Of a DNA stretch of 64,000 bases, positions 2,448-30,305 are shown piece by piece. The notes under the pieces were generated by a model. That model worked only from the letters and a program-made list of their open reading frames with translations, was not told where the DNA came from and ran no database searches. The stretch's first letter is position 1. Every line of letters begins with the position of its first letter. The translations under genes were made by a program, and so were the position numbers. The stretch comes from Deltaproteobacteria bacterium (GTDB lineage Bacteria > Desulfobacterota > Binatia > HRBIN30 > CADEER01), in assembly GCA_029262455.1 (NCBI GenBank), contig JAJCZJ010000090.1, positions 1-64,000 on the forward strand, in the 5' to 3' direction.

Positions 2448-3485
2448 CTAGGCGAAGTAGGTGTGCGATGTGGCAGCGGCGGCGAAGTTCTCGCGCAGGT
2501 GTTCGATCGACTGACTGTCGGCGTTCACCGCGTCGAGGCCGTGCGCGAGGACGAAGGCATAGCTGCGCTGAAACGGCGACAGCGGTGCCTTCTTGAACTT
2601 CGCGTCGTAGTGGTCGTCGAATGCCTTGGGGCGGTCGGGCCCGAAGCCCATCCACCGACCGGCCATGTAGCGCGCCGCCTTCATTCCGATCAGGCCGATG
2701 CCCGCGGCGCGGGCACTGTCGAGGGTGGGGCGGATTTGTTGCATTGGCGGCGAATCGGGAATCACGGCTCCCTCGGTCCAGTCGTACCATCCGCCTGGGG
2801 TGATCGCGATTTGAGCGAGGGAGTACCAGCCCGTATCGGCCATGGCTTCGAGTACGGCCTTGGCGTTTTGGTGCGTGCTGATTCCCCAGTGGTCCACCTT
2901 GCCGGCCTTCTTGGCGGCGAGAAACGCCTCGTGCATTTCCTCGCTGCGAACCACGGACACGTTGTTGGTCGCCATCACGTAGTAGGCGTTGACGTGCTCA
3001 GTGCCGAGATCCTTGAGGCTCTTATCCATCGCGGCGGTCCAGTTTCGCGCCGCAGTCTTGCTTTTTGCGGCGCTCAATTCGTCGCCCGGAGCAATGTCGA
3101 GGCCGACGAGTCCCTTTGAGATCAGAAAGATCTTGTCGCGGCGCTGCTTGGCAAACGCTGCGAGGTTTGCCTCTGCGTTTCTGTAGTAGTCACTGGTCCC
3201 GACGTCGAAGACGTTGACGCCGTGATCGAAGGCCTGGTTGAGGAGATCGTCTTTGCCGTAAAACATCAGCGCCGCGCCGCAGCCAAACACCAGCCGACTG
3301 CCATTGAAACCGGTGCGCCCGAGTGTGCGGTAGGCCATTTCTGGCCAAACTTCATCGGCACGGCCGGCCGATTCGGCGAGCGCGCCGGCGGCCCGACCGA
3401 GCTCAGCGGCCCCGAGGCCGAGGAGCCCCATGAGTTGAAGTGTACGTCTGCGGGTAGCCGGGAATGCGCGCTCGAGTACGGTCAT
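2448..3485 (-). CDS. Tat-exported aldo/keto reductase family protein
   Basis: 345 residues. The N terminus has a twin-arginine signal (TRRRTLQLMG, residues 11-20) and an alanine-rich hydrophobic stretch, so export by Tat is likely. The aldo/keto reductase barrel starts near residue 50 (MAYRTLGRTGFNGSRLVFG). The conserved Asp (D94 in NVFDVGTS), Tyr (Y100 or Y101) and Lys (K124 in LISKG) are present. The position that normally carries the catalytic His (after strand 4, here NAYYVMATNN) has no His, so NAD(P)H-dependent carbonyl reduction may be altered. It lies 88 bp upstream of the TonB receptor start on the same strand and could be co-transcribed with it. The physiological substrate is unknown. 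Confidence 0.85.
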   Translation of the reverse strand: MTVLERAFPATRRRTLQLMGLLGLGAAELGRAAGALAESAGRADEVWPEMAYRTLGRTGFNGSRLVFGCGAALMFYGKDDLLNQAFDHGVNVFDVGTSDYYRNAEANLAAFAKQRRDKIFLISKGLVGLDIAPGDELSAAKSKTAARNWTAAMDKSLKDLGTEHVNAYYVMATNNVSVVRSEEMHEAFLAAKKAGKVDHWGISTHQNAKAVLEAMADTGWYSLAQIAITPGGWYDWTEGAVIPDSPPMQQIRPTLDSARAAGIGLIGMKAARYMAGRWMGFGPDRPKAFDDHYDAKFKKAPLSPFQRSYAFVLAHGLDAVNADSQSIEHLRENFAAAATSHTYFA

Positions 3486-3585
3486 TGAGTCTCTCCTGTG
3501 AATTGCGGTGTGTCCGTTTGTAGCGCTTTGGCGATTTTGGTGAAAGCTTTACCCGGGAGGCGTGTTGAAGATTCGCGGGAGTTTG

Positions 3586-4515
3586 ATGAGGATTGGATTG
3601 GCGGTAGGTGAGATGGCTGGCCGGGCAGCGACGGTGGACGACCTCGTCGCTCAGGTACAGCTTGCGGAGCGGGATGGGTTTGCGACCGCTCATATCGCCA
3701 ATATCTTCGGCTTCGATGCACTGACGGGTGCGGCATTGGCCGGGCGAGAAACCACCACAATCGAGCTGATGACGTCGGTGGTGCCGACGTTTTCGCGCCA
3801 TCCTCTCTACATGGCGCAGCAGGCACTCTCGACCAATGCGGCGTGTGGCGGCCGCTTTTCGCTTGGCATCGGCCTTTCTCACATCGTCGTGATCGAAAGC
3901 GTCCTCGGCCTGTCGTTCGAGAAGCCGTTTACGCACATGAGCGAGTACGTCGAGGTGCTCGCTCCACTGCTGCGGCAAGAGGCGGTTTCGTTCGAAGGCG
4001 AGCAGTATCGGGTCAACGCGGAAGTGACGGTCGTCGGTGCGACGAAGCCGCAGCTGATTCTGGCGGCTCTGGCACCGCGTATGCTGCGTCTCTGCGGGTC
4101 GAAGGCAGATGGTACGATTACGTGGATGACCGGCCCGAAGACGCTACGCCATTTTACGATACCGCGAATCAACGAGGCCGCGATGGCGGCGGGCCGACCA
4201 ACACCGCGGGTGATTGCCGGACTGCCGATTGCGGTGTGTGATGATCCGGCGGCCGCACGCGAGCGCGCGGCGCGAGCGTTTTCGTTGTATCCCAGTATGC
4301 CGTCCTACCGAGCGATGCTCGACAGGGAAGGTGCCGGAGGGCCAGAAGACATCGTAATCGTCGGTGACGAGGCCAGCGTCAGCGACCAACTCGACCATCT
4401 CGAAGAGATTGGTGTGACCGACTTTCTAGCGCCAATCTTCCCCGTCGGCAGCGACAGAGACGCCTCCATCGAGCGAACACGCAACCTACTAGTAGAAAGA
4501 GTAAGCAACCAGTAG
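3586..4515 (+). CDS. LLM-class flavin-dependent oxidoreductase (luciferase-like)
   Basis: 309 residues from ATG 3586, chosen because MRIGLAVGE is the family's usual first strand and GGGAG lies a few bases upstream; an upstream TTG at 3562 is in frame but adds no family sequence. It has the bacterial-luciferase TIM-barrel layout: LAERDGFATAHIANIFGFDALT, the ELMTSVVPTFSRHPLYMAQQALS segment, GRFSLGIGLSH, and late segments typical of F420- or FMN-dependent members (GDEASVSDQLDHLEEIGVTDF). Cofactor (F420 versus FMN) cannot be settled. It is divergent from the aldo/keto reductase and upstream of the thiolase, consistent with a lipid or steroid degradation neighbourhood. A degenerate heptamer array follows the TAG stop immediately. 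Confidence 0.85.
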   Translation: MRIGLAVGEMAGRAATVDDLVAQVQLAERDGFATAHIANIFGFDALTGAALAGRETTTIELMTSVVPTFSRHPLYMAQQALSTNAACGGRFSLGIGLSHIVVIESVLGLSFEKPFTHMSEYVEVLAPLLRQEAVSFEGEQYRVNAEVTVVGATKPQLILAALAPRMLRLCGSKADGTITWMTGPKTLRHFTIPRINEAAMAAGRPTPRVIAGLPIAVCDDPAAARERAARAFSLYPSMPSYRAMLDREGAGGPEDIVIVGDEASVSDQLDHLEEIGVTDFLAPIFPVGSDRDASIERTRNLLVERVSNQ

Positions 4516-16991: not shown

Positions 16992-18643
16992 AGTCGAAAT
17001 ACTCCGTATCCTTCGGCGCCCCGTACGTCTCGATTGCGTACGACGGACAAACAAATGCCGAGCACAGTGCGCGTGTCGCGCGGGTCGATGATGCCGTCAT
17101 CACTGATGGCGCCGCTGGCCTCGAGGGCGACGGATCCCTTTTCTTGAATCTCCTCGACCGCGGCCGCGATCTGGGCGTCGACCTCCTCGTCGAAGGGCTC
17201 GCCTTTTCTTGCGGCTTGACCGCGGCGCACGATCGACATGACCCCGGCGATTTGTTTGCCACCCATGACCGCGATCTTTGCGCTCGGCCAGATGAAGGTG
17301 AAGCGGTTGTTGAAGGCGCGGCCGGACATTGCGTAGGTACCCGCGCCGTAGGAAGCGCCGACGATGACGGTCAAGTGCGGCACGGTCGAGTTCGTGACGG
17401 CGTTGATGAGTTGAGAACCCTTTTTGATGATCCCGGCCTGTTCGACCGCTTGGCCGACGATGAAGCCGGTGAGATTTTGGAAGAACACCAACGGCAAGTC
17501 GATTTGGTTGCAAAGTTGAATGAAGTGGGCGGCCTTTTCGGCGGACTCCGGATAGATGACGCCGTTGTTACCGAGGATGCCGACCGGGTAGCCGTCAATC
17601 GAGGCGAAGCCACAAGCCAGGGTCTGGCCATAGCGCGGTTTGAAATCCTCGAAGCGAGAACCGTCGACGACGCGCCCGATGATGTCGCGAATTTCGACCG
17701 GTCGCCGCAGGTCCGGGTCGATGGTGCCGAGCAGCTCTTCGGGGTCGAGCTTGGGTGGGTCGGGGCGCAGGGAAGGCGGCGGGCCGGGTTTGCGCCAGTT
17801 GAGATGAGAGATGACCTCCCGACAAAGACGCAGTGCGTCCGGTTCGTCTTCGGCGAGATATTCACCGAGGCCGGAAATGTCGGCGTGCATTTGCGCGCCG
17901 CCCAAGGTCTCGTCGTCGGAGTCTTCGCCGGTCGCCATCTTCACGAGAGGCGGGCCGGCAAGAAAGATTTTCGACTGCTTTTTGATGACGATGTTGTAGT
18001 CGGACATACCGGGTTGATAAGCGCCGCCTGCCGTCGAAGAGCCGAAGACGACGCAAACAGTCGGGATGTCCATCTTCGAAAGCTCGATCATCTCGTAGAA
18101 GAAGCGGCCGGTTTCGGCGAAGTGATTGGTCTTGGCGGGGCGCCGACGTTTCTTGCCGTCGTCGTCGCGCGGCTCCATGCGCAGGTCGGCGCCGGCGGAT
18201 TCGACGAAGCTGACATAGGGGATGCGGTTGTCGCGAGCGATCTCGAGAGCGCGCATCCATTTCTTGGCAACGTAGGGAGTGAGCGCGCCGCCAAGAACGG
18301 TCGGGTCGTTCGCGAAAATCACGCACTCAACACCTGCGATGATGCCGATGCCGATGATGGCGCCACCGCCGATGACGTAGTCGGAGTTGTAGGCGGCGAG
18401 TGAGCTGATTTCGAGAAACGGACTGTCCGGATCGAGCGCCAGGGCGATTCGTTCGCGGACTGGCAGCTTGCCGCGTTTCGCCAGGCGCTCGTGGTGATAG
18501 GTGCCGCCGCCGAGCTCGGCTTCGTCGAGCAGCCCCTCGAGAGTCGCCAGCTTCTCCAGCATGGCGGCCCGATTTTCCTGGAACTCGGGGCTGCGAGGGT
18601 CGAGGGTAGACGGGAGCGGCGGAGCAAGCATTGTAGGTTGCAT
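16988..18643 (-). CDS. Acyl-CoA carboxylase beta subunit (carboxyltransferase)
   Basis: 551 residues, typical for 3-methylcrotonyl-/geranyl-CoA carboxylase beta chains. N-terminal carboxyltransferase half: ERIALALDPDSPFLEISSLAAYN, GGAIIGIGIIAGVECVIFANDPTVLGG, YVSFVESAGADL. C-terminal half: LPLVFFQNLTGFIVGQAVEQAGIIKKGSQLINA, the oxyanion turn ASYGAGTYAMSGRAFNNRF and IAVMGGKQIAGVM. It transfers the carboxyl group from biotin to the acyl-CoA. ATG 18643 has AGGAGA upstream and is the first gene of the four-gene operon running to 12478. Substrate (geranyl-, 3-methylcrotonyl- or other acyl-CoA) is unresolved. Confidence 0.92.
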   Translation of the reverse strand: MQPTMLAPPLPSTLDPRSPEFQENRAAMLEKLATLEGLLDEAELGGGTYHHERLAKRGKLPVRERIALALDPDSPFLEISSLAAYNSDYVIGGGAIIGIGIIAGVECVIFANDPTVLGGALTPYVAKKWMRALEIARDNRIPYVSFVESAGADLRMEPRDDDGKKRRRPAKTNHFAETGRFFYEMIELSKMDIPTVCVVFGSSTAGGAYQPGMSDYNIVIKKQSKIFLAGPPLVKMATGEDSDDETLGGAQMHADISGLGEYLAEDEPDALRLCREVISHLNWRKPGPPPSLRPDPPKLDPEELLGTIDPDLRRPVEIRDIIGRVVDGSRFEDFKPRYGQTLACGFASIDGYPVGILGNNGVIYPESAEKAAHFIQLCNQIDLPLVFFQNLTGFIVGQAVEQAGIIKKGSQLINAVTNSTVPHLTVIVGASYGAGTYAMSGRAFNNRFTFIWPSAKIAVMGGKQIAGVMSIVRRGQAARKGEPFDEEVDAQIAAAVEEIQEKGSVALEASGAISDDGIIDPRDTRTVLGICLSVVRNRDVRGAEGYGVFRL

Positions 18644-25728: not shown

Positions 25729-25851
25729 GCGGAAACGAGTACTTGCCGAAAACCTGAGAGCCTTCCCCTCTCCCTCCGGGAGAGGGTTAAGGGTGAGGAG
25801 GTCGAAATGCCAGCTTCCTTCTTGCCCTTGTGCCGCAGTGCTTTCGCGTCC

Positions 25852-25977
25852 GGGGTACAGGGTGCGGGGTACAGGGTGCGGGGTACGGGGTACAGGGTAC
25901 GGGGTACGGGGTACAGGGTACGGGGTACAGGGTACGGGGTACGGGGTACAGGGTACGGTACGGGGTACGGGGTACGG
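25852..25977. repeat. Heptamer array, reverse orientation, mixed units
   Basis: About 18 units of GGGTACG/GGGTACA type, the reverse complement of the arrays at 1-56 and 6474-6620. Two early units have GGGTGC and one unit is shortened near 25956 (GGGTACGGTACGG). Units are more diverse than at 6474-6620, suggesting an older or less homogenised array. Confidence 0.92.
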
Positions 25978-26644: not shown

Positions 26645-26800
26645 GTGTCTGATTTGCCGGTCGTTGCAGGGTTTGGGAAGAACCACTCGTCGTCTTCGCG
26701 ACAGGGCCGGTTTCCGTGGCGGGGAAGGGGCGTCTTTTTGAAGCCATGCGGCGGCGGACAGTTGCTATTCGCTTGGGCGGCATGGTTTGACCGACATCTG

Positions 26801-28033
26801 ATGGACTACTTCGACTATTCGAAACGAGCGGACCCGATTCGCGACGATCTCGTGGCGGCTCATCGCCGTACTTGGGAACACATCGGTGTAGCGGGGACGT
26901 GGCTCAACGGCGTCGAGCGCGTCGCCATCGCCGATGAGACGCGGAGAGCGAGAGGCTGCGCTCTCTGCGCTGAGCGCAAGGCCGCGCTGTCACCCTTTGC
27001 CGTTGCTGGGGAGCATGATCACGCCGGCGTGCTGGCCGGGCCGTTGGTGGACGTAGTTCATCGTGTCACGACGGATGCCGGACGGCTGACGGAGTCGTGG
27101 TACAAATCGGTGTTGTCCTCCGGCATATCGGCGGAATCTTACGTCGAAGCGGTCGGGGTGGCGGTGCTTGTGATCAGCGTGGACGCCTTTCACGATGCGA
27201 TGGGGATCCCGTTCGAGCCGCTGCCGGAGCCGAAGCCCGGTGAGCCGACGCGCCAACGTCCGGCTGGTGCTCGGGTGGAAGAGGGGGTCGCCTGGGTTCC
27301 GGTTCTCGGGCCGTCCACCTGCGGACCCGAAGACGCCGATTTGTTTGCGGGGTTACCGCCCGGGCCGGCGCCGAATGTCATTCGTGCTCTTTCGTTGGTT
27401 CCGTCCGAGGTGCGCGCTTGGCACGACCTGGCGGCGGCGCAGTATCTCTCTGCCAGGCAAATGCAGGATCCGGTTTCTCCGCGGGCGATCGATCGGGCTC
27501 AGATCGAACTTCTGGCCGGTCGGGTGTCTGCGTTGAATGAGTGCTTTTACTGAACTGCGTCGCACGCTGTGATGCTCCGTGCGAGCATCGAGTACCAAGG
27601 GAACGAAGCAGACGTCAGCGCCGTCGCCGGGGGCGCTGAATCTGAAGGCAACAACCCGGTCGTGCACGGTAGGGAGCTGGTGGCGTTCGCCGAGGCGGCG
27701 GTGCAGGGCGATCCGGCGAGCCTGGAGTCGGCGCGCGATGCCTTGCGCGAGGTTGTCGGATCGGCCGGCTTGGTCGATGCGGCGGGAGTCGTCGCCAACT
27801 TTCAACGCATGGTGCGCATCGCGGACGGTGCGGGAATCGCCCTCGATACTTCGGTCGGCATGTTGGCCGAGGATCTGCGCGAGGACCTTGGCCTAGATCG
27901 CTTCGAATCGGCCGGGCGATCAGGTGATCTCGGTCCCGTGCAGCGAGCACTGTCACCTGTGCTGCGGCGTTTGGCGCACTTCGGGTTTCGAATGATGGGC
28001 CGTCGCGCACGGAAAAGAAGCGCTGTAAGTTGA
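26801..28033 (+). CDS. Alkylhydroperoxidase (AhpD)-related selenoprotein, in-frame TGA = Sec251
   Basis: 410 residues from ATG 26801 when the TGA at 27551-27553 is read as selenocysteine. Domain 1 (about 1-165) has ERVAIADETRRARGCALCAERK (C53, C56) and an extended helical AhpD-like fold. Domain 2 (about 195-360) carries RAQIELLAGRVSALNECFY, then TGA, then TASHAVMLR. C248 and residue 251 with the His four residues later make CxxU-x3-H, the peroxidatic motif of AhpD with Sec in place of the second Cys. Downstream sequence stays family-like (GLVDAAGVVANFQRMVRIADGAGIALD). It likely reduces peroxides using a thiol donor, and glutathione reductase lies 192 bp downstream. Ordinary gene calling would split this into two ORFs (stop at 27553, restart near 27569); a nonsense mutation is the alternative. 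An extension to GTG 26645 is possible. Confidence 0.87.
27571..27589 (+). promoter_or_regulatory. Candidate bacterial SECIS hairpin
   Basis: GATGCTC (27571-27577) and GAGCATC (27583-27589) form a perfect 7-bp stem around the loop CGTGC, with G at loop position two; a T-G pair can extend it. The loop starts 24 nt after the TGA. Bacterial SECIS elements are small hairpins inside the coding sequence just after UGA, with a short apical loop having a G among its first two bases. A competing 7-bp stem (TCGCACG 27560-27566 with CGTGCGA 27578-27584) overlaps it. Confidence 0.65.
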
Positions 28034-28225: not shown

Positions 28226-29590
28226 ATGACCGAATACGACTACGATCTTTTCACCATTGGTGCCGGTTCGGGCGGGGTCCGCGCCAGCCGAATTTCTGCC
28301 TCGTACGGCGCCCGCGTCGCGGTGGCCGAAGAGCGCTATCTCGGCGGGACTTGTGTCAACGTCGGGTGCATTCCGAAGAAGCTGTTCGTTTACGCGTCGG
28401 CTTTTGAGGAGGAGTTTTCGGATGCGCAGGGTTTTGGATGGACGGTGGGTGAGCGATCGCATGCGTGGCGGTCGCTCATGGAGAACAAGGATCGGGAGAT
28501 TGACCGGTTGAACGGCATCTACGCGCGGCTCCTCGACCAGGCCGGTGTCGACCGCATCGAGGGGCGCGCTCGTATCGTCGATGATCACACAGTCTCGGTC
28601 GGCGACCGGAAGATCACAGCCAAACACATTCTGGTCGCGGTTGGCGGTTGGCCTTGGGTTCCTGAAATCCCGGGAATCGAGCATGCGATTACCTCGAACG
28701 AGGCGTTCCACCTGGAGACGTTTCCCGAGCGAGTGGTGATTGTTGGAGGAGGCTACATCGCGGTGGAGTTCGCCGGCATCTTCCACGGGCTCGGTGCTGA
28801 GGTCACGCAGCTTTATCGGGGAGAGCTGTTCTTGCGCGGTTTCGACGACGATCTGCGCGCCGCGCTCGCGGTCGAGATGCGCAAGACGGGTATTGACGTT
28901 CGTTTCGGCTCGAACCCGGCGACGATTGAAAAGGCGGCCAATGGCGACCTTCTAGTGACGCTCGAAGACGGCACTCGGATCGACGCAGATGTTGTGATGT
29001 ACGCGACCGGACGTGCCCCCTTGACGGCGGACCTCGGTCTCGAAGATGCCAATGTCGCACTCGGTCCGTCTGGCGAGATCCTCGTAGACGAGTACTCTCG
29101 AACCTCGGTTGAGAGCATCTGGGCCATTGGCGACGTGACCGACCGTGTGCAGCTGACCCCGGTCGCGATTCACGAGGGCATGTGTCTGGCGGCGACGCTG
29201 TTCAAGGGCGAGCCGACAAAACCAGATCACGAGAACATCGCGAGCGCGGTGTTCAGCCAGCCGCCGTTGGCCACCGTCGGCCTGACCGAGGCCGCGGCGC
29301 GTGAGCACTACGACGCCGTCGATGTGTATCGATCGACGTTCCGCGAGCTCAAGCACACGCTGTCAGGGCGCGACCAAAAGACGACGATGAAGCTCGTCGT
29401 CGATGCCGAGAGCGATCGCGTGCTCGGTGCGCACATGGTCGGAGCGCACGCGGCAGAGATTATTCAGGGGATCGCGATCGCGGTGAAGTGTGGAGCCACG
29501 AAAGCTCACTTCGATGCGACGATCGGGATCCACCCGACTTCGGCGGAAGAGTTCGTGACGATGCGTGAGCCGGTTTCCTCCGGGGGGTGA
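28226..29590 (+). CDS. gor: Glutathione-disulfide reductase
   Basis: 454 residues, the usual size. FAD-binding [25 protein letters not shown], redox disulfide [13 protein letters not shown] (C43, C48), NADPH domain [24 protein letters not shown] segment [22 protein letters not shown], and the C-terminal catalytic His in [13 protein letters not shown]. It reduces GSSG to GSH with NADPH. The residues after the NADPH glycine motif include two arginine-rich positions consistent with NADP preference, though this is not proved. It lies downstream of the selenoprotein and convergent with a GST gene, suggesting a glutathione-based oxidant defence region. Confidence 0.92.
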
Positions 29591-29636: not shown

Positions 29637-30305
29637 CTATGCTCGGGCCGCCGCCTCCGGCGAGAGCCCGCCGTAGATAGAGACTTCCTCGGCGAAGATC
29701 TCTGCGATCGTTGGCCGGTTGATGATCGCGTCGGCGTATCTCTTGAAGTTGGGATGCGCATCGCCGTCGACCTCGAGACCTGTGTGGCGGTAGTTGATGA
29801 GCGGGCTGGCGATTGCGATGTCGGCGATTGTCAGCGAGTCCCCCACCATGAAATCGCGCTTGCCGATGGTTTCGTCGAGATGGCCGAACAAACCCGGCAG
29901 CCGTTCTAGTGCTTTGCCGACGACCTTTTCATTGGTCGGCTGTCCGAGGACGAGGGGGTAGGCGACCTTCTGAAGGAAGACCGTCGCTATTGTCGCCGAC
30001 AAGGCGTCGTCGGCGAACTCTTCGAGGAATGCGGCGCGTGCGAAGTGAATCGGATCTTCGGGGACCAGCCGTGGCTTTGGATTCACCTTGTCGAGGTACG
30101 CGACGATGACCGATGAATCTGGAATGTTCTCGCCCTCGTCGGTTGTCCACACCGGAATCTTGCGCAACGGGTGAAGCTTCTCGAAACCGTCGGGCAGATC
30201 GAAATGGACGATGGGATTGAGTTCGTAGGGGATCCCTTTTTCGGCGAGAGCGATTCGAACCTTGCGGACGTACGGTGAGAGATGGGTTCCATGAAGTGTC
30301 GGCAT
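29637..30305 (-). CDS. Glutathione S-transferase
   Basis: 222 residues. Thioredoxin-like N-terminal domain opening MPTLHGTHLSPYVRKVRIALAEKGIPYEL with Ser10 as the likely glutathione-activating residue (SPYVRKV), RKIPVWTTDEGENIPDSSVIVAYLDKV for the gamma-glutamyl-binding SS motif, then an all-helical C-terminal domain (VGDSLTIADIAIASPLINYRHTGLEVDGDAHPNFKRYADAI). It conjugates or reduces electrophiles with GSH. Convergent with gor. Its stop is 46 bp from that of gor, and a separate plus-strand ORF over it is a shadow. Confidence 0.88.
   Translation of the reverse strand: MPTLHGTHLSPYVRKVRIALAEKGIPYELNPIVHFDLPDGFEKLHPLRKIPVWTTDEGENIPDSSVIVAYLDKVNPKPRLVPEDPIHFARAAFLEEFADDALSATIATVFLQKVAYPLVLGQPTNEKVVGKALERLPGLFGHLDETIGKRDFMVGDSLTIADIAIASPLINYRHTGLEVDGDAHPNFKRYADAIINRPTIAEIFAEEVSIYGGLSPEAAARA

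Follow-up and report, generated by a model that had tools for sequence, protein, structure and literature searches.

A very probable selenoprotein of the AhpD-related family NF041238 with a predicted sestrin-like two-domain build

Described relatives of the window gene

A 2005 study reported four sequences of a "hypothetical protein 1" sharing a conserved CXXU, and its account of the protein offers no functional evidence (PMC1088965). The corresponding row of its table reads "4 7 0 5", probably the counts of Sec and Cys forms (PMC1088965). A table in a 2026 review lists the NCBIfam family NF041238 with CxxU and identifies it with the "hypothetical protein 1" described from the Sargasso Sea metagenome (PMC13188914). 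An earlier note on the DNA analysed here, made from the sequence alone, called the gene described below unannotated-looking; this does not hold, as its family is already named and listed in that review. The family has thus been on record, as a predicted selenoprotein, for twenty years.

Fused bacterial AhpD dimers with a sestrin-like layout have also been described, namely YciW, a Rokubacteria CMD protein and a Corynebacterium protein, in a paper whose main text does not mention selenocysteine (PMC11429811). Our literature search found no paper joining "alkylhydroperoxidase-related" with "selenoprotein". Sestrin, selenocysteine and AhpD were found together in an article whose subject is p53 and chemical-induced oxidative stress (PMC7066401).

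The window, by which we mean the whole stretch of 64,000 nucleotides analysed (contig JAJCZJ010000090.1 of assembly GCA_029262455.1, from a deltaproteobacterium), carries a gene on its forward strand whose product aligns with the entire NF041238 profile (positions 1 to 357 of 357, residues 13 to 370). It has the CFYUT motif and, as reported for the family in the sources cited above, CxxU with a stem-loop after the UGA. No feature was found that sets it apart from the family, and its source genome has two copies. The product just passes the cut-off of 23 bits for the Pfam CMD family (PF02627), falls below that of TIGR01926 (35.3 bits against 81.8) and lies far from AhpD proper (TIGR00777, 17.4 bits against 191.95).

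With the single-domain AhpD and peroxidase-related proteins (TIGR01926; structures 6k40, 2oyo, 3c1l and 2prr, and Mycobacterium tuberculosis AhpD, 1knc) the window protein shares the fold of its C-terminal half and the sequence of the centre; these have a single domain per chain, with Cys at the position where Sec is predicted here. Sestrins resemble it in having two AhpD-like domains per chain in the same order, one active and one altered. Human Sestrin2 has its active site in the N-terminal half, Sesn-A, with Cys125 as first Cys and the second replaced by Leu128 (PMC4674687), whereas in the window protein the active half would be the C-terminal one, with Sec as the second residue. YciW is, like the window protein as we read it, a fused AhpD-like dimer (PMC11429811). 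A YciW-related family, NF053654 (GroundWater_YciW, "YciW-related (seleno)protein"), gave a weak match in two of 53 aligned members of our family (best E 3.4e-5), and the window protein itself did not match it at E <= 0.001.

Reading frame and conservation of the active-site TGA

The gene translates as a single frame of 411 codons, in which the stops are a TGA at codon 251 and the closing TGA (28031-28033); the product has 410 residues when the former is counted as a residue. The start at 26801 (MDYFDYSK) agrees with the starts of relatives (F/x-Y-S), and a GTG farther upstream at 26645 opens the same frame. The features are as follows.

26801 to 28033, + strand: very probable selenoprotein gene of family NF041238 (AhpD_rel_CFYUT); translation, and NCBIfam match of 467.1 bits against a cut-off of 175
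26801 to 27286, + strand: predicted N-terminal AhpD-like domain, residues 1 to 162 as modelled; model pLDDT 94.7, best fold rows AhpD/CMD-type
26957 to 26968, + strand: C53-A-L-C56 motif of the N-terminal half, aligned with the CxxU of the C-terminal half by profile comparison (hhalign)
27281 to 27880, + strand: predicted C-terminal AhpD/CMD domain with the active site, about residues 161 to 360; 6k40_A with Z 14.3, PF02627 with 24.1 bits
27542 to 27553, + strand: CFYU redox motif, C248 to U251, with the TGA at 27551-27553; residues 248 and 251 invariant, TGA in 62 of 62 genes
27563 to 27565, + strand: codon of H255, the invariant His of CxxU-x3-H; 53-row alignment
27571 to 27589, + strand: SECIS-like hairpin; synonymous-codon test, same columns in 59 aligned genes

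The surroundings of the TGA read ALNECFY-U-TASHAVML, that is, C248-x-x-U251-x3-H255. The earlier note had described this arrangement accurately: two open reading frames lie in the same frame, split by nothing except TGA 27551-27553; the TGA replaces the second Cys of a CxxC-x3-H motif (NECFY-U-TASH); and the 159 codons beyond it are open, the other in-frame stop being solely the terminal one. In a 53-row alignment of the family E236, C248, residue 251 and H255 were all invariant.

ORF calling with table 11 splits the gene into 26645-27553 and 27569-28033, and this division speaks for the TGA as an ordinary stop, the gene being then a nonsense mutant or the source of a 250-residue N-terminal product alone. 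The note had argued that such a split would cost half of the active-site domain. It would indeed drop the Sec centre together with the final 159 residues, so annotation as a selenoprotein is called for; the part before the TGA, however, is predicted to comprise a whole AhpD-like domain and the start of a second, more than half of one domain.

Conservation of the site was assessed by tblastn (E <= 1e-20) over the collected loci, using queries with Cys at the position. TGA was found at this one column in all 62 distinct homologous genes reaching the site, far more often than chance would give; the motif is CFYU in 60 of them, CRYU in one and CFFU in one, and these Cys-bearing queries retrieved no Cys form among those 62 full-length genes. 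This agrees with the note's view that the TGA is not a random nonsense mutation, and it stands against an ordinary stop, as the protein downstream is conserved. The family's name, "(seleno)protein", and perhaps the table row cited above, suggest that Cys forms of NF041238 exist elsewhere. At the column that the note proposed to inspect, all full-length relatives retrieved thus have TGA, and single-domain relatives have either TGA or Cys. All 53 aligned members matched NF041238 (E <= 0.001) and PF02627 (E <= 5). The paralogue in the same genome (C88:100180-101271) is 44% identical and carries TGA at the same site.

Three surveys with the family model, which overlap with the 62-gene set and give the number of TGAs rather than their place, yielded the same picture. 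Among 148 genomes of the class there were 40 over-cut-off matches in 28 genomes; three end before the site, and all 37 that extend over it contain TGA, one of them (G885:C13) together with two TAG. Matches extending over the site contained TGA in eight of eight cases in the phylum (395 genomes) and in six of six in the phylum of genome G395 (400 genomes).

Several copies depart from the usual form. Three further genes are without the site: two are open frames ending before it (L135 and L136), and the third (L165, the same gene as L137) has an internal deletion. In this last gene (L165:6248-6748; G865:C13, about 17247-17747) 205 residues are gone in frame, between residues 76 and 282 of the single full-length counterpart compared (L069), and its product joins the CxxC part of the N-terminal half to the last helices of the C-terminal half, without the Sec centre; it looks as if the two repeats had merged back into one domain. 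The deletion may be genuine or an artefact of assembly. The note had also named frameshifts elsewhere in the 3' half in close relatives as evidence against its reading. The window gene has no other in-frame stop; elsewhere one copy (L166; G885:C13, about 3066-4166) is broken by further internal stops, although its TGA site and hairpin are kept, and its genome has other family copies. Two TGA copies (L162, G802:C1:612881-613609, and L163, G885:C10:79056-79775) match only from about profile position 100, so their N-terminal halves are short or unlike. At Chloroflexota-type loci (L054-L063, e.g. L055:5995-8195) two NF041238 genes stand in tandem; each carries the TGA, and neither has the CxxC of the N-terminal half. 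At L064 only one family copy was found in the stretch examined. TGA likewise takes the place of the second redox residue in many single-domain AhpD-like genes about 200 codons long (L085-L111, and the class survey).

SECIS-like hairpin and selenocysteine machinery

Bacterial SECIS elements are described as stem-loops immediately downstream of the UGA whose small apical loop includes a G (PMC1088965). By inspection, the window hairpin fits these features in its position and its small G-containing loop: a 7-bp stem (27571-27577 paired with 27583-27589) closes the loop CGUGC (27578-27582), and 17 nt separate the TGA from the stem.

Since this DNA is also coding, each gene was compared with 100 synonymous-codon recodings of itself; the genes are related, so the trials are not independent. 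Over 60 genes the best hairpin averaged -8.33 kcal/mol, against -4.23 kcal/mol for the synonymous shuffles. The window gene reached -9.8, and one of its 100 shuffles was at least as stable. Individually, 27 of the 60 genes were at or below the 5% level; among the 33 above it are the first-copy Chloroflexota-type genes without exception (11 of 11), and in two second-copy genes no good hairpin was found by this measure (-0.3). For part of the family the hairpin test is therefore weak. The single-domain relatives served for comparison: those with TGA averaged -8.34 against -4.40 for their shuffles (5/31 at or below 5%), and those with Cys, the control, -4.49 against -4.40 (0/14). The hairpins of the single-domain TGA genes differ in shape and spacing.

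Across an alignment of 59 distinct stretches, 92.0% of the cells in the same stem columns form standard pairs. In 15 cells both sides had changed, compared with 3.1 in shuffled data (0/500); these cells were located in the two outer pairs. These two outermost pairs are unpaired in 18/59 and 13/59 sequences, two inner pairs of the stem never vary, and two of the 59 sequences have a mismatch inside the stem. Two other measures were unremarkable (221/500 for pairs changed on both sides, 51/500 for further pair types). RNAalifold by itself predicted just the five inner pairs, none of them changed on both sides, and the single RNA fold of the window stretch was not unusual against dinucleotide shuffles (z -0.56).

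The source genome (G000; 7.34 Mb in 127 contigs) was found to contain the full set of components for which the note had proposed a search. Matches over the curated cut-offs were obtained for selA (561.8 bits) beside selB (375 bits), for selD (271.6 bits) and for one clear tRNA-Sec (74.9 bits, the runner-up match scoring 41.7). The selD lies inside a 720-residue ORF (L074:6662-8824, on G000:C11) whose first part is NADH dehydrogenase-like by eye; this ORF is probably a fusion of the Ndh-SelD kind, a name taken from PMC2398784. Its SelD part reads CGGCAAK, with Cys rather than Sec.

In the wider class, co-occurrence with selA was uninformative, selA being over cut-off in 25 of 28 family genomes and in 98 of 120 others. 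Three family genomes are without a full selA (G848, G852 and G887). In G852 and G887 the family gene is present and no selA was detected, yet their tRNA-Sec matches are strong (81.4 and 70.2 bits); in G848 selA is represented by a fragment (114.5 bits), and the tRNA-Sec match there, at 41.3 bits, is not a clear one. Our guess is that the absence of selA from these genomes reflects assembly gaps. Thirteen genomes with neither selA nor an over-cut-off family match were used as a comparison set for tRNA-Sec; none scored above 51.8 bits, and five were barely above the Rfam gathering score of 47 (47.0 to 51.8).

The invariant TGA, the hairpin excess and the Sec machinery all favour the selenoprotein reading put forward by the note. 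An ordinary stop, and with it a pseudogene, was rejected on the 62/62 TGA, on the excess of hairpin stability over synonymous recodings, on the absence of such an excess in the Cys relatives and on the presence of the machinery; we give it hardly any probability. General reassignment of TGA was set aside because across the wider superfamily the column holds Cys or TGA, and because the Sec machinery is present. Judged from sequence, this is very probably a selenoprotein gene whose in-frame TGA is recoded as selenocysteine in the active site. SelB, the selenocysteine tRNA and the hairpin after the UGA would together recode UGA 27551-27553. That the TGA is recoded, that the gene belongs to NF041238 and that the protein has the two-domain build described below is, taken jointly, a reading in which we place very high confidence.

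Domain architecture, the N-terminal CxxC and probable chemistry

The predicted structure of the whole chain, with Sec modelled as Cys, had a pLDDT of 95.5 and a pTM of 0.94. Fold comparison with VIA-align 2, which re-examines only Foldseek's own list, gave human Sestrin2 (5dj4_B) as the best full-length match (Z 16.7, rmsd 3.2 over 238 residues, model residues 1-347); Deinococcus radiodurans AhpD (6k40_A), with the Z given above, aligned with model residues 161-357 (rmsd 2.6 over 179 residues). Foldseek alone returned nothing at E <= 0.001 for the whole-chain or the N-half model, and its sestrin match was weak (9lvj_U, E 0.87). For the N-terminal half folded on its own, the top 15 rows by Z (8.8 to 5.9) were all AhpD/CMD-type and the next row had a Z of 3.6; values of 8.8 or less lie in the tool's "possibly common arrangement" range and are weak alone for a helical protein. 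Comparison of the two halves by hhalign covered 122 columns (E 4.3e-4, with a probability of just 34%) and placed C53-x-x-C56 on C248-x-x-U251. With the fold matches of both halves and the hhalign result taken together, the family reads as a fused AhpD dimer, with an AhpD-like N-terminal half and an AhpD/CMD C-terminal half bearing the predicted Sec centre. Two AhpD-type helical domains would then be fused and laid out like the sestrin pseudo-dimer.

The N-half CxxC was present in 30 of the 53 aligned members, mostly followed by the consensus R-K-x-x-L-S-P. The remaining 23 rows are all 17 Chloroflexota-type sequences and six from the window's class, so the motif cannot be needed by the whole family. 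In a FastTree tree built without the CxxC segment, one split (support 0.758) separates the 30 members with the motif from all the others, which fits one change of CxxC state; the tree has no outgroup and gives no direction, whether gain or loss. The window protein and its paralogue both have the CxxC and fall in different subclades.

Downstream of the gene lie a pyridine nucleotide-disulfide reductase (Pyr_redox_2, 28226-29590) and a glutathione S-transferase (GST, 29637-30305). The reductase would be an attractive redox partner. A general functional link to these two genes was rejected, however: when ORFs of 32 other loci with unequal flanks were compared (E <= 1e-5), the reductase gave no hit and the GST one weak hit. 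Clustering over the 33 loci revealed no widely conserved neighbour that might hint for or against a peroxidase. Besides the family gene and its antisense frames, neighbours were shared mainly among the Chloroflexota-type loci; one cluster, by eye a luciferase-like oxidoreductase, occurred in 5/33 loci, including the neighbour of the genome's own paralogue (L071:10336-11373), another in 6/33, mostly Chloroflexota-type, and others in three or four. A tandem repeat of the 7-bp unit CGGGGTA (18.4 copies, 25851-25977) lies between two genes of the window.

AhpD chemistry depends on a nucleophile, a resolving Cys and a Glu/His relay. By analogy, the C-terminal domain, which would hold a complete centre of E236, C248, Sec251 and H255, would most likely use Sec251 as the nucleophile that attacks either an oxidised partner or an organic hydroperoxide; a Glu/His relay would activate Sec251, and C248 would resolve it as a selenenylsulfide. 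Sec-dependent reduction of peroxides or disulfides is, on this analogy, the likely chemistry. In the subfamily of the window protein the CxxC of the degenerate N-terminal domain, at a guess, may supply the Sec centre with reducing equivalents.

Two alternatives bear on this chemistry, and leave recoding, family and two-domain build unaffected. The recoding could be real and the protein a reductive dehalogenase or another thiol or selenol reductase, in the manner of the AhpD-fold debrominase Bmp8, which shares the AhpD-type fold (6ohi_A, Z 12.9 over 178 residues, near the AhpD rows) and has a different chemistry according to its PDB title. The matches by sequence, however, were AhpD or peroxidase-related proteins (6k40_A, 3.3e-15; 2oyo_A, 1.9e-12), and Bmp8 was absent from the 13 matches of the profile search of PDB sequences; we consider a non-peroxidase of this kind unlikely.

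The protein could also be mainly a redox sensor or partner binder, as sestrins partly are, its Sec centre signalling rather than detoxifying. The best full-length fold match is after all a sestrin, and in sestrins alkylhydroperoxide reduction is reported for one domain, GATOR2 binding for the other (PMC4674687). Against this, the complete centre is invariant in 53/53 rows, which favours catalysis. Furthermore, the 12 Pfam families matched by the 53 members (E up to 5) did not include the sestrin family (PA26), though HMMER filters can hide weak matches; nor did the profile search of PDB sequences return a sestrin. A predominantly sensory role appears improbable, and catalysis by the Sec centre remains our preferred reading. 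Sestrins bind GATOR2 through an acidic motif, such as DDYDY, on a hinge in the second domain; by eye this string does not occur in the window protein, whose model has helices 232-245 and 249-265 there.

A more far-reaching proposal, which we advance as speculative and rather doubtful, is that NF041238 represents a bacterial, selenium-using counterpart of the sestrin architecture, with its domains working as one unit; in one subfamily the N-half CxxC would feed electrons to the peroxidatic Cys/Sec pair of the C-terminal half, and the chain would be its own reductase relay. Both the Sec-bearing double domain of sestrin-like layout and the subfamily with CxxC seem little explored and deserve a specialist's attention. 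The fused-dimer reading would give the family a testable chemistry, and would add a Sec-containing case to the origin of the two-domain design of sestrins.
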